Shown one piece after another: positions 49,480 through 52,753 of a stretch of DNA of 64,000 nt. Position numbers and translations under genes: made by a program. Source of the stretch: Desulfobacterales bacterium (GTDB taxonomy: Bacteria > Desulfobacterota > Desulfobacteria > Desulfobacterales > JAHEIW01); NCBI GenBank assembly GCA_030066985.1, contig JASJAN010000034.1, positions 1 through 64,000 of the forward strand, read 5' to 3'. The notes under the pieces were generated by a model that was not told the origin of the DNA, ran no database searches, and was given only the letters and a program-made list of their open reading frames with translations. Every line of letters begins with the position of its first letter. Within the stretch, counting starts at the first letter, position 1.

Positions 49480-49895
49480 AACACCTCCTAGCAACTTTTC
49501 CATCTGTTCAGGTTGGTATACCCAAATATAACACCTGCCGGGATCATATACCCATAAATCGATGCATTCAATTAATTTCGCGTTAAATTTAAACCTGCAA
49601 AATAGGGTTTATTCGCCAAAGGCAACAAGGTCAGCTAAACCCGCACAAATAGCAATCATGATCACTGGCTAACACAACTGGGCAGCTATTGACCTTGGGC
49701 AAACAAATGGGCGCCGTATTCAGCTGCCAACAGCTAATAAATGCTGTTTTGAGTTGACCATTAGGAAAATTTTGCACTGCAGGATAGTTGTGCAAATTAA
49801 TAACTTACTGAAATTAAACAGATATTAGTTTGGCACAGTATCTGCAGACAGCAAAGATACGACAATTACACCCATAGGAGAAAGATGCTCTGCTC
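49480..49895. other. Intergenic region upstream of the stator-like cluster
   Basis: These 416 bases contain the ppiA ribosome site at one end and a sigma-54-like promoter at 49831 at the other. Between them I see no gene, RNA or strong hairpin. Confidence 0.45.
49831..49846 (+). promoter_or_regulatory. Sigma-54-like promoter upstream of the MotA-like cluster
   Basis: TGGCAC, five bases, then CTGC: one mismatch from TGGCAC-N5-TTGC, with GG and GC at the correct 12-base spacing. It lies 50 bases upstream of the first small MotA-like gene. The equivalent place before the second copy keeps TCTGCA but has lost TGGCAC. Confidence 0.55.
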
Positions 49896-50150
49896 ATGCG
49901 GATATTATTACCCATTGTCTGGTTGCTTATTTTCATCTTACCCGGATGCATCATTGCCGGTCCCGAAATCATCATGCAATTAGAAAACTTTCTACTGCTG
50001 GTGGTCAGCCTGCTGCTCAGCGCGTGTATCACCGTCCCGCTTAGGACTGTCAAAATCCTTCGTAAAATCTTCAACGCGGTTTTCAAGCAGAAGGAGATCA
50101 TTAATGATCGGTTGATAAGTGATTACGCTATTTCAAGCAAACGGCACTAG
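49896..50150 (+). CDS. Short MotA-like TM1-TM2 hairpin protein, tandem copy 1
   Basis: An 84-residue protein of two membrane helices (about 3-22, 29-48) followed by a short charged tail. It matches the first 80 residues of the full MotA-like protein at 50665: PxIVWLLIFI, SLLLSACITVPLRTVKILRK against TLLSALIAFPLKTFKDLFKS. It ends at NDRLISDYAISSKRH, before the third and fourth helices. The start at 49896 fits the alignment with copies 2 and 3; AGGAG is 14 bases upstream, rather far. The LPGC in helix 1 resembles a lipobox but is not kept in the other copies. Confidence 0.7.
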   Translation: MRILLPIVWLLIFILPGCIIAGPEIIMQLENFLLLVVSLLLSACITVPLRTVKILRKIFNAVFKQKEIINDRLISDYAISSKRH

Positions 50151-50277
50151 TCCAATTTCGAACATGATTTTCAATCGATAAAATCTTAAGCAACTGAAAT
50201 TATATAAAAAATATTTTTAATCCGTTTCTGCAAACTCATTGCGGATACGACAATTCAATCCATAGGAGGACAATTCT

Positions 50278-50535
50278 GTGATCAAGAAATTGCTTCTACC
50301 ACTCATCCTGTTGTTTTTTGTCACCCTGTCTACAAACATCGTCGAGAATGCCTCGATCATTATAAATCTTAAAAGTGGGTTGCTGGTGGCCTTCGGCATG
50401 CTGTTAAGTGCGTTTATTGCCGTAACGTTTAAAACCCTCAAGGACCTTTTCACAAGCCTCGGGGCGTATATTCAGCAGAAACAGGCCATGAATGAAAACC
50501 TGATCAGCGATTACCTGATTCGTGGTAAATCATAA
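50278..50535 (+). CDS. Short MotA-like TM1-TM2 hairpin protein, tandem copy 2
   Basis: An 85-residue protein that starts at a GTG eight bases after AGGAGG. It is clearly a paralogue of copy 1 and of the N-terminus of the 270-residue protein: KKLLLPLILLFFVTLS, SIIINLKSGLLVAFGMLLSA, then NENLISDYLIRGKS. The upstream leader is shared too: GATACGACAATT...CCATAGGAG occurs before both copies 1 and 2. Starts of the three copies are 382 and 387 bases apart, so the unit was duplicated with its leader. Confidence 0.75.
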   Translation: MIKKLLLPLILLFFVTLSTNIVENASIIINLKSGLLVAFGMLLSAFIAVTFKTLKDLFTSLGAYIQQKQAMNENLISDYLIRGKS

Positions 50536-50664
50536 TGGGGCATTGGCGGGCCTTAACTTGAATGGATAATTTGTTAACAACCGATATTATTATAAATTTA
50601 TTTTAAACGGGTCTGCTAGCCACATCAGAAATTGGTTTAATGAAATCCCTAAAAGGAGAATCCA

Positions 50665-51477
50665 GTGCTCAAGAAATTGTTGCTGCCCATTGGTCTGCTT
50701 TTGTTTATCATCATGTCAGAAAGCGTTATTGATGGCACCTCTATTATCATGAACTTAAAAAGCGCTCTGCTGGTGACAGTGGGCACGCTGTTAAGCGCCT
50801 TAATCGCCTTTCCTTTGAAAACCTTCAAAGACCTGTTTAAAAGTCTCATGGCGGTTCACCTGCGACAGGAGACCGATAACGAATCGCTGATCAAGGAACT
50901 TGAAAAGCTGGCACTGATCTGGCGCCGCCATGGACTGGTGGCCCTTGAACATGCCCGCACAGGAATTGAGAATGTTTTCTTGCAAAAGGGTATCGAACTG
51001 GTGGTTGACGGCTACGATCGCTATGAGATCCGCAATATCATGGAAAAGGACTATGAGCTTTATTTTTCCCGCAAAGAGTCACAGGTCAATATTTTAAACA
51101 CCCTTGCCAAGCTGGCCCCGGTGTTTGGCTTTGTGGGTACCATTTTGGGTCTGATTAACGTCTTAAACAGTATGCAAGATCCCACCATGATCGGAAAGGG
51201 CATGGCGCTGGCCTTGTTAACCACGCTCTACGGCATTTTGCTGGCCAATTTTCTTTTCTTTCCGCTAGCAAAAAAGCTGTCTGAATACACCAAGACCGAG
51301 GCAACCGTTCTAAATATTATATTAGAGGGCATCATGGATATCGCCGAGCAAAAAACCTCTAAATCCATTTCCCACAGGCTCAATTCCTATCTTGACGTCA
51401 ATCGCCTCAGCCGTATGCATAAGAAGAAAAAACGCCAACGGCAGGTGCGGCCCAAACCCCAAATGCAAATGCAGTAA
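50665..51477 (+). CDS. MotA/TolQ/ExbB-type proton-channel protein
   Basis: A 270-residue MotA-like stator protein. Helices 1-2 lie at about 4-22 and 33-53 (SALLVTVGTLLSALIAFPLK, typical for MotA), a cytoplasmic part of about 90 residues follows, then helices 3-4 (LAKLAPVFGFVGTILGLINV and MALALLTTLYGILLANFLFF). The C-terminus is basic with Gln/Pro. GTG start at 50665 after AAAAGGAGAA. The MotB-like gene begins nine bases after its stop. No flagellar genes are near, so it may power a flagellum encoded elsewhere or another ion-driven machine. Too short for the long-tailed ZorA protein of Zorya defence. Confidence 0.85.
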   Translation: MLKKLLLPIGLLLFIIMSESVIDGTSIIMNLKSALLVTVGTLLSALIAFPLKTFKDLFKSLMAVHLRQETDNESLIKELEKLALIWRRHGLVALEHARTGIENVFLQKGIELVVDGYDRYEIRNIMEKDYELYFSRKESQVNILNTLAKLAPVFGFVGTILGLINVLNSMQDPTMIGKGMALALLTTLYGILLANFLFFPLAKKLSEYTKTEATVLNIILEGIMDIAEQKTSKSISHRLNSYLDVNRLSRMHKKKKRQRQVRPKPQMQMQ

Positions 51478-51486
51478 TACCGCCAA

Positions 51487-52221
51487 ATGCGAGACAATCA
51501 CACAGCAGAATCAGACGGCAAAACACTTAAACGGCGGCTTGAGCTGTCTGAGCAAAGAAGATCGCTACTGCAAAAGCGACTTTCGTCATCGATCATTGAA
51601 GATGACACAACCCTGTGGAGTTATGTTGATCTGATCACGCTGCTGCTGGTTTTATTTATCCTGTTTTATTCCCATGCCATTTCCCGCAAAGCGACGGTAA
51701 AAAGGGATGCTGCAGTGTCCAAGCAGGCATCCCAGGCCCAAACGCAGGATGCCTCGTTGGAGCAGTTGCGCCGCCAGGTTATGCAAACCGTGCGCTCAAA
51801 AGATAAAAAGGATTTTGCAGTACGCTGGGATCAAAAGCGATTGGTATTGGTGCTGGGTGAAAAAATTGCCTTCAATGTAGGTGACGCCACCCTGCTTCCT
51901 GATTTTCAGCCCACGTTAAAGCAGATTGCCCGATTCATTTCATCCCAGCACGGCTATAAGGTCTCGGTGGCAGGTCATACGGACGATGTGCCCATTCACA
52001 CCCGGCAGTTTCCCACCAACTGGGAGCTGTCAGCGATTCGGGCCGTCAATGTGGCTAAGTTTCTGATCGATCATGGCGTCCATTCCCAACGACTTTCAAT
52101 CGAAGGGCATTCGGCCTACCGACCCATTCTTCCCAACAGCAGCGCCCAGAATCGACAAGCCAATCGTCGGGTCGAGATCACATTGATCAAAGAAAGAGAT
52201 GAGAAAACAAGGCAGCACTGA
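51487..52221 (+). CDS. MotB/OmpA-type stator partner
   Basis: A 244-residue protein. A single membrane helix with the proton-path aspartate is at about 39-56 (WSYVDLITLLLVLFILFY). A linker leads to an OmpA-like peptidoglycan-binding domain (about 115-240): VSVAGHTDDVPIHTRQFPTN, WELSAIRAVNVAKFL, GHSAYRP and NRRVEITL are all conserved. With the preceding protein it forms a MotAB-type stator. It ends in a TGA that is also the first three bases of a 79-bp inverted-repeat element. Confidence 0.88.
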   Translation: MRDNHTAESDGKTLKRRLELSEQRRSLLQKRLSSSIIEDDTTLWSYVDLITLLLVLFILFYSHAISRKATVKRDAAVSKQASQAQTQDASLEQLRRQVMQTVRSKDKKDFAVRWDQKRLVLVLGEKIAFNVGDATLLPDFQPTLKQIARFISSQHGYKVSVAGHTDDVPIHTRQFPTNWELSAIRAVNVAKFLIDHGVHSQRLSIEGHSAYRPILPNSSAQNRQANRRVEITLIKERDEKTRQH

Positions 52222-52297
52222 CCTGCCCCCCAAAAACTGATCCAGATTTTAAGTTAGAGTTATGGTAAATCTGGAAGCAAAAAAGGAGGGCAGGTCA
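52219..52297. mobile_element. 79-bp inverted-repeat element (MITE-like or solo IS end)
   Basis: TGACCTGCCCCCC at 52219-52231 and GGAGGGCAGGTCA at 52285-52297 are inverted copies with one mismatch. Inside, TCCAGATTT at 52241-52249 pairs exactly with AAATCTGGA at 52267-52275; the arms are placed symmetrically, nine bases apart on each side. The TGA...TCA ends resemble those of IS3-family elements. No transposase is present. It sits exactly at the stop codon of the MotB-like gene. Confidence 0.6.
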
Positions 52298-52663
52298 AGA
52301 ATGGGATGGGGTAAAGTCCCGGAGTGGCTTTTCTATAACAACAAAGGTAATCCTTTGGATCCAAGAAATCTTAGGCAGAGAATCCATTATAAGATATGCG
52401 AAAAAGCCAGGCTTAGGCGCGTCAGAATCCACGATTTAAGGCATTCCTATGCTACCATAAGAATTTCAGCAGGTCACAATATAGCTGATATATCCCGTCA
52501 GCTTGGTCATTCTTCGTATAAAATTACAGTTGATACATATTATTATTGGATTCCCGATCAGAATTCCAATGAAGTAGATGAACTAGACATGATCGGCAAA
52601 AACCGCAACAATCCGCAACCTATGCGCAACCAAAATATAAAGGATTCAGCTGCTTTTAGCTAA
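52262..52663 (+). pseudogene. Integrase C-terminal fragment beside tRNA-Phe
   Basis: A 133-codon frame reads as the C-terminal half of a tyrosine recombinase: WGKVPEWLFYNNKGNPLDPR, then HDLRHSYATIRISAGH, RQLGHSSYKITVDTYYYWIP. The HXXR, LGH and tyrosine elements are there, but the first catalytic arginine and all of the N-terminal domains are missing, so it cannot be active alone. It ends 15 bases from the 3' end of tRNA-Phe, a typical integration position. Confidence 0.85.
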
Positions 52664-52669
52664 ATCCTT
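52640..52669 (-). terminator. Hairpin between tRNA-Phe and the integrase fragment
   Basis: AAGGATTCAGCT at 52640-52651 pairs with AGCTAAATCCTT at 52658-52669 with one mismatch. On the minus strand it lies nine bases beyond the tRNA 3' end and is followed by TTATATTTT, so it probably ends the tRNA transcript. Confidence 0.6.
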
Positions 52670-52677
52670 AATATTAC

Positions 52678-52753
52678 TGGTGCCGAGGGACAGAATCGAA
52701 CTGCCGACACGGGGATTTTCAGTCCCCTGCTCTACCGACTGAGCTACCTCGGC
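52678..52753 (-). tRNA. tRNA-Phe (anticodon GAA)
   Basis: A 76-base cloverleaf with CCA encoded. Acceptor GCCGAGG pairs with CCTCGGC, anticodon stem GGGGA/TCCCC encloses loop CTGAAAA (anticodon GAA), T arm GGCAG-TTCGATT-CTGTC. Confidence 0.97.

Follow-up and report, generated by a model that had tools for sequence, protein, structure and literature searches.

The window analysed here comprises the first 64,000 nucleotides (nt; positions 1-64,000, forward strand) of contig JASJAN010000034.1 in the assembly GCA_030066985.1 of a Desulfobacterales bacterium, an uncultured relative of sulfate reducers whose genome of 5.07 Mb in 81 contigs is 97.8% complete. It carries a stator gene pair, motA-motB, preceded by two short genes, S1 and S2, which encode only the hairpin formed by the first two transmembrane helices (TM1-TM2) of MotA. 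A first-pass annotation of this DNA had described two hairpin-only copies ahead of an intact motA-motB pair, with starts 382 and 387 bases apart; the arrangement was confirmed by open reading frames, alignment, and Pfam, and the spacing is correct. The locus is a genuine and rare case of partial tandem duplication within a stator operon; its genes are as follows.

49896-50150, + strand: short copy 1 (S1), 84 amino acids (aa), ATG start; MotA TM1-TM2 hairpin only
50278-50535, + strand: short copy 2 (S2), 85 aa, GTG start, like motA of same-genus relatives; MotA TM1-TM2 hairpin only
50665-51477, + strand: motA, 270 aa, GTG start; four-helix stator subunit with cytoplasmic domain
51487-52221, + strand: motB, 244 aa; N-terminal hydrophobic stretch with Asp (WSYVDLITLL) and OmpA-type peptidoglycan-binding domain

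S1 aligns without gaps to MotA residues 4-78 and S2 to residues 1-78, with 42% and 53% identity to the MotA N-terminus. Local alignment to this N-terminus gave S1 a score of 133 and S2 one of 189; shuffled sequences averaged 29 and 30 (z 19.5 and 31), and none of 500 shuffles reached either score. Past residue 78, both short copies have SDY and a few further residues, and the MotA sequence runs on. A Pfam scan of S1 and S2 gave no match above cut-off and none to PF01618. The short copies are derived MotA fragments and not members of the MotA family, as they lack TM3-TM4 and the cytoplasmic domain. The LPGC of S1 has a proline at -2, which is atypical for a lipoprotein motif.

The third gene product matches PF01618 (MotA_ExbB) at 1.5e-28 (99.5 bits versus a cut-off of 22.9), and a profile built from 37 MotA proteins hits PomA 8BRD at 2.7e-68 as well as MotA structures. 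P152 and P200, which we take to be the equivalents of E. coli P173 and P222, are invariant across the 37 sequences. In an AlphaFold2 model (mean predicted local distance difference test score, pLDDT, 82.1; lower, at 56-65, across residues 1-30), helices span residues 2-21, 27-48, 51-65, 72-98, 104-114, 119-168, 173-227, and 232-257. The protein has the four-helix plan of TM1-TM2, cytoplasmic domain, and TM3-TM4 with invariant prolines. It falls below the cut-offs of the named NCBIfam equivalogs MotA, PomA, and MotP (best MotP, 174.8 bits versus 394), and is a MotA/PomA family member that belongs to none of them. The MotB product matches PF00691 (1.1e-17, 64.6 bits); MotB_plug (2.3e-4, 21.1 bits) stays below its cut-off of 24, as does the best NCBIfam model, MotD, below its own. 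With a transmembrane (TM) stretch and conserved Asp motif (VDLITLL), read from the sequence, and the OmpA-like domain, it has the two hallmarks of MotB.

Compared with MotA/PomA/MotP stators (PF01618; MotA5-MotB2 type), the third gene is thus a full member with its own MotB. S1 and S2 are homologous to MotA residues 1-78 (TM1, TM2, and first cytoplasmic helix) but lack TM3-TM4, the cytoplasmic torque domain, and all of the PF01618 span. An AlphaFold2 model of S2 has three helices (mean pLDDT 70.6, predicted template modelling score 0.32). On these models the copies would hold TM1, TM2, and one short helix, and would stop in the first turns of MotA helix 72-98.

Leaders, junctions, and origin of the short copies

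S1 and S2 are very probably tandem partial duplications of the motA 5' end that arose in this lineage. The elements that bear on this origin lie around the short genes; L006 and L007 denote the motA loci of two same-genus relatives and L008 a locus labelled Deltaproteobacteria.

49761-49775, + strand: possible enhancer-binding site TTAGGAAAATTTTGC, related to TAGGCAAATTTTGC (L006, L007) and TAGGCAAATTTTTC (L008) upstream of motA
49831-49846, + strand: sigma54-like -24/-12 promoter TGGCACAGTATCTGCA (GG-N10-GC), 10 of 12 consensus positions
49876-49880, + strand: Shine-Dalgarno (SD)-like AGGAG of S1, from the sequence aligned with relatives
50118-50150, + strand: S1 tail SDYAISSKRH-stop, at the inferred duplication junction; its TAG stop is aligned to the CTAGGCAAATTTTGC box that relatives have upstream of motA
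50151-50277, + strand: leader 2, second promoter/leader copy; -24 GG lost, SD-like sequence CATAGGAGG kept
50506-50535, + strand: S2 tail SDYLIRGKS-stop, inferred junction, the same as that of S1
50536-50664, + strand: leader 3, diverged the furthest of the copies; sigma54-like matches reach no more than 7 of 12, and there are two weak sigma70-like matches

Judged by alignment, leader 1 is the orthologue of the L006/L007 motA leader: local scores were 96 and 79, and shuffles reached at most 35 and 42. Against the same two leaders, leader 2 joined to the S1 tail scored 77 and 48 (shuffle maxima 36 and 38). Leader 3, taken together with the S2 tail, is the most diverged; it scored 50 against L006 (maximum 36) and 51 against leader 2 (maximum 39), and its alignment to L007 or leader 1 was no better than shuffles. 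The leader that the first-pass annotation saw as shared between the first two copies is real, and is found ahead of motA in relatives as well. In L006 and L007, motA is preceded by TAGGCAAATTTTGC and then by TGGCATAGTATCTGCA or TGGCATAGTAACTGCA. A degraded form of the TAGGCAAATTTTGC box sits at the S1 stop codon (CACTAGTCCAATTT), and we therefore place one end of the duplicated unit a short way upstream of this box and the other near codon 78 of motA. Given these ends, the C-terminal tails of S1 and S2 would be former leader DNA read in frame, and the shared LISDY a single junction copied twice. The similar LISDY ends had been taken as a sign of maintenance; they are present in both copies, but are best read as the duplication junction. 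In this lineage, a stand-alone motAB operon very probably underwent tandem duplication of a segment that began upstream of its sigma54 promoter and ended near codon 78 of motA; amplification of the unit then gave two extra copies.

Nucleotide identity among the copies is 56-64% (127/225, 132/225, and 150/234). An assembly artefact is unlikely because the copies are only this similar. A phage or mobile origin was rejected after a scan of viral contigs with S2 gave no relative, and an Rfam scan of the leaders for structured RNA (E up to 0.1) matched only tRNA. For the age of the duplication, three placements of the clade of short copies were close in codon-model log-likelihood (lnL): sister to all genus MotA (-1493.1), to L006 MotA (-1494.3), or to the window MotA (-1494.6). 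A separate origin of the copies at the genus base was worse than all three (-1498.9).

SD-like AGGAG is retained ahead of all three starts. By alignment to S2 and relatives, the ancestral start codon of S1, GTG in relatives, is now CTG at 49890, and the present start, ATG 49896, sits 15 nt from AGGAG. The earlier statement that ribosome sites are kept thus holds for the AGGAG before S1 and not for its start codon. An out-of-frame ATG at 49885, 4 nt after this AGGAG, opens a 32-codon frame (49885-49983) that overlaps S1 and could compete with its translation.

Promoter, distribution, and genome context

The sigma54-like site was scored over 12 positions of the sigma54 consensus with fixed GG-N10-GC spacing. 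In the window it stands before S1, 834 bp upstream of motA. All 42 testable orthologue loci have a site of at least 8 of 12 at 56-252 bases before the motA start, and 40 of the 42 have one of at least 9; among 300 shuffled 450-base control sequences, 46 reach 8 and 10 reach 9. The 42 loci are not independent, as some are close relatives and L008 and L009 are nearly identical in sequence. The first scans covered 40 loci (from 37 of the 40 other genomes with window-type motA, plus L008-L010). L047 and L057, added afterwards, have the site and no hairpin, and L058, which begins inside motA, is outside the testable set. Because this well-preserved promoter precedes S1 and the later promoter copies have decayed (leader 2 without the -24 GG, leader 3 without a site), S1-S2-motA-motB is most likely a single operon read from the S1 promoter. 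The conserved -24/-12 element characteristic of a sigma54-dependent operon is present, and RpoN binding is predicted. A box related to that at 49761-49775 occurs at -130 to -140 from motA in L006, L007, and L008, which makes the window box a possible activator site.

Some matches count against this single-promoter operon. Within 450 bases upstream of motA, the best spaced sigma54-like match reaches 8 and is located in S2 (50387), two weak sigma70-like matches fall in leader 3 ahead of motA (5 found versus 4.6 expected overall), and one weak terminator-like match, the only one on the + strand in 49500-52300, overlaps the S1 start (49889-49902; 5 found versus 2.7 expected overall). The sigma70-like matches in leader 3 and the terminator-like match occur at about chance frequency.

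In L006 (MotA 86-87% identical) and L007 (83%), a minus-strand peptidyl-prolyl isomerase gene (PF00160; in L007 only a fragment at the contig end) is followed directly by motA-motB, with no short copy between; apart from the copies, these two relatives have the gene order of the window. No motA of the window type is present in the third genome of the genus (G004, 79% complete) or in the family's two other genomes (G001, G002). The window MotA is matched in 328 of 389 genomes drawn from the order, and motA of the window type, defined by E up to 8.7e-49, occurs in 41 genomes; named metagenome-assembled genomes that have a close motA carry the label Desulfobacterales or Deltaproteobacteria. No hairpin-like match was found upstream of motA in any of the 42 testable loci (1500 bases tested in 34, fewer in 8, under 700 in 3); as a control, 26 of 43 queries found S1/S2 in the window. 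Searched with S2, 389 class-level genomes, a sample that overlaps heavily with the order-level one, gave 35 matches in 33 genomes, of which all 33 besides S1/S2 lie in frames of at least 241 aa. Among 395 phylum-level genomes there were 6 matches in 4 genomes, and the four besides S1/S2 lie in frames of 274-353 aa. A PF20560 (MotA_N) survey of 158 genomes placed 109 of 110 matches in frames of at least 214 aa, the sole short frame (73 aa, in G528) being a frame-broken MotA; this model does not detect S1/S2, and equally diverged hairpins would escape it.

The hairpin copies are lineage-specific, confined to one species among the genomes searched. A widespread stator-accessory family is rejected within these genomes, as no other free hairpin was found. 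The first-pass annotation had named relatives with a single motA and no short copies as a sign of chance duplication in decay; such relatives do exist, which shows rarity and not decay. Titles and abstract openings of the open-licence PMC literature on MotA and stators gave no description of hairpin-only MotA copies among the matches listed. Among the orthologue loci, L009 (WTAW01000348.1) is labelled Candidatus Aminicenantes; because its motA N-terminus is nearly identical to that of L008 and its promoter is the same, this bin is probably contaminated.

Elsewhere in the genome, eight scanned proteins of a flagellar cluster on contig C46 comprise FliG, FliF, a FliI-type ATPase, a FlgE-type protein, FliM, MotA, and two MotB-like proteins, and C20 carries a further motAB. 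The window motAB is therefore one of three motAB loci. The C46 motA is also preceded by a sigma54-like site (11 of 12; L062, minus strand, 6272, 134 bases upstream), and the two MotB-like genes lie adjacent to each other after it (L062:3863-5355, minus). Near the window pair, neither 11 neighbour proteins scanned with Pfam (43.6-57.9 kb) nor 6 neighbours scanned with PADLOC include flagellar, Tol, Exb, or Zor partners, as the first-pass annotation had stated. Ten proteins near orthologues of the window motAB, from seven loci, include a single flagellar one, a CheX-FliN protein in L010; the remainder comprise enzymes and transporters, a TPR protein, a sigma factor, and regulators, one of which is a sigma54 activator in L070. 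FliM occurs in 33 of the 41 genomes with window-type motA versus 184 of 348 others (Fisher p 0.0007, uncorrected for kinship) and was not seen in 8 of the 41, one of them 97% complete (G020). The window motAB may well serve as a flagellar stator.

In multi-stator flagellar systems, two or more motAB sets serve one flagellum. The host genome resembles these in its stator genes on C46, on C20, and in the window, and differs in that the extra motAB is headed by two partial motA copies. Zorya, Tol, and Exb motors share the MotA/TolQ/ExbB superfamily, and the window MotB matches ZorB models (best 1.5e-21). However, the window MotA has no ZorA match and reaches only 25 bits with TolQ (cut-off 221), and PADLOC gave no match of any kind in the six neighbours, including ZorC, ZorD, or ZorE. 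The locus was rejected as a Zorya system.

Directly after motB and beside tRNA-Phe, 52262-52753 encodes a 133-aa C-terminal fragment of a tyrosine integrase (PF00589, 6.7e-12), which suggests a decayed integration event at this tRNA gene. On contigs C12 (L064:7519-8283, +) and C59 (L065:8052-8792, +) of the same genome (G000), two proteins of about 250 aa have a MotA-loop N-terminus (residues ~67-137) and a FliG C-terminal domain at the C-terminus; their best NCBIfam model, the LIC10244 family, is far below cut-off. They resemble chimeras of a stator loop and a rotor domain, and would in that sense complement the hairpins.

Constraint on the hairpins and their possible role

The first-pass annotation described the short copies as looking maintained and not decaying; this is partly supported, and selective maintenance of S1 and S2 is probable. 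There are no indels in the 225-234 aligned coding bases of the copies. The frames are open, the TM cores of both lack charged or strongly polar residues, and the charge pattern is positive-inside, with a predicted N-in/C-in topology. Neutral evolution was simulated from a MotA consensus, with the joint criteria of an open frame, no charged residue, H, N, or Q in the TM cores, and hydropathy of at least 2.4. The joint chance was 0.0044 at 0.3 substitutions per site, where the aa change is 45% (47% in S2), and 0.00095 at 0.45, where it is 57%, the same as in S1. The values for S1 and S2 should not simply be multiplied, as the copies may share part of their history. Under neutrality, the chance that both frames stay open was 0.018 or 0.007 for the two settings with longer branches and 0.048 or 0.13 for the two with shorter ones, so that open frames by themselves are weak evidence.

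The copies might instead be relics, that is, chance partial tandem duplications that are drifting and have not yet been broken, an explanation we consider less probable although several results weigh on its side and against maintenance. In a codon model, omega on the short-copy branches is 0.62-0.72, versus 0.17-0.18 for MotA; equality of the two is rejected (twice the lnL difference 11.0-11.5), and omega of 1 on the short-copy branches is unrejected in all four topologies (2.6, 0.9, 1.9, and 2.4). Six hairpin positions are at least 90% conserved in 31 aligned rows (G10, F14, N30, S33, G40, and P50); S2 keeps four (F14, N30, S33, and G40) and S1 only P50, and the 5 of 12 kept by both together are no better than average identity. 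S1 has lost its ancestral start codon, the promoter copies have decayed, and relatives lack the copies, which are known from one species and have no orthologue for a direct test of constraint. The simulation thresholds were set after the sequences had been seen, the locus was chosen for looking intact, and the joint chance rises to 0.02 at 0.2 substitutions per site. Drift accounts poorly, however, for two frames that are open and free of indels, and whose TM cores are clean, after 47% and 57% aa change; leaders of similar identity do carry indels (3, 5, and 13 gap events for three pairs aligned over 108, 123, and 97 bases), and pairwise dN/dS by the method of Nei and Gojobori (NG86) of the short copies versus three genus MotA genes is 0.30-0.53. 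The part of the earlier claim that stands is therefore the open frames and clean TM cores beyond neutral drift, and not a dN/dS that rejects neutrality. Selection to stay an intact hydrophobic hairpin is likely, and evidence for selection to stay MotA-like is weak, weaker in S1. It is moderately supported that the hairpins are kept as intact, hydrophobic, indel-free frames in which most MotA-specific constraint is relaxed, more so in S1.

Because the copies end inside helix 72-98, at the start of the cytoplasmic domain, S1 and S2 lack the torque-generating region and the pore-lining TM3-TM4. According to the PomAB structural report (PMC10374538), TM1-TM2 forms a peripheral outer layer in which a resolved TM1 contacts TM2 of the neighbouring subunit. 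The same report proposes a periplasmic-side ion path between the TM1-TM2 linker or TM2 start and the TM1 of the neighbour, names PomA D31 and S34 as lining it, and proposes that the peripheral helices carry the plug-release signal (PMC10374538). By profile alignment, MotA N30 and S33 correspond to PomA D31 and S34; S2 keeps both and S1 neither. The hairpins would be made together with MotA from one transcript. They could take up positions in the peripheral TM1-TM2 layer of the MotA ring, or bind assembling MotA subunits by the contacts between TM1 and TM2 of neighbours, and the number or activity of these stators would thereby be lowered or tuned. By themselves they would neither form a channel nor contact the rotor, and would not conduct ions or push on FliG.

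An action of the hairpins on the stator is plausible but somewhat doubtful. Co-made membrane hairpins that perturb or tune the stator are nevertheless our tentative best explanation overall, at rather less than even probability. A more specific version, in which S1 and S2 act as modifiers built into the stator, joining the outer layer of the MotA ring to give a mixed ring with altered plug release, ion leak, or recruitment, seems improbable. It is also rather unlikely, though conceivable, that only translation matters and the product is unneeded: ribosomes on S1 and S2 would protect the transcript against Rho-type termination ahead of motAB, or would determine the level at which motAB is expressed. 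This is proposed because the main promoter lies before S1, and it fits the conserved sigma54-like site far upstream of motA and the AGGAG ahead of all three starts. It would account for open frames but not for hydrophobic cores and the positive-inside pattern, and the sigma70-like matches in leader 3 leave room for a motA promoter there. Unlikely to a slightly greater degree is that the copies are new small membrane proteins that have drifted from MotA binding to a job unrelated to the stator. Relaxed MotA-specific residues and retained TM character, especially in S1, are in keeping with such proteins, but the copies have kept their place in front of motAB, and S2 retains its four near-invariant residues.

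If co-made hairpins do tune the stator, this would be a rotary motor tuned by co-expressed fragments of its own subunit, and the locus would offer a natural test of what the peripheral TM1-TM2 layer does in MotA. If the hairpins do not act on the stator, the locus would be a clear case of a partial tandem duplication in a sigma54 operon that makes new small membrane-protein genes.

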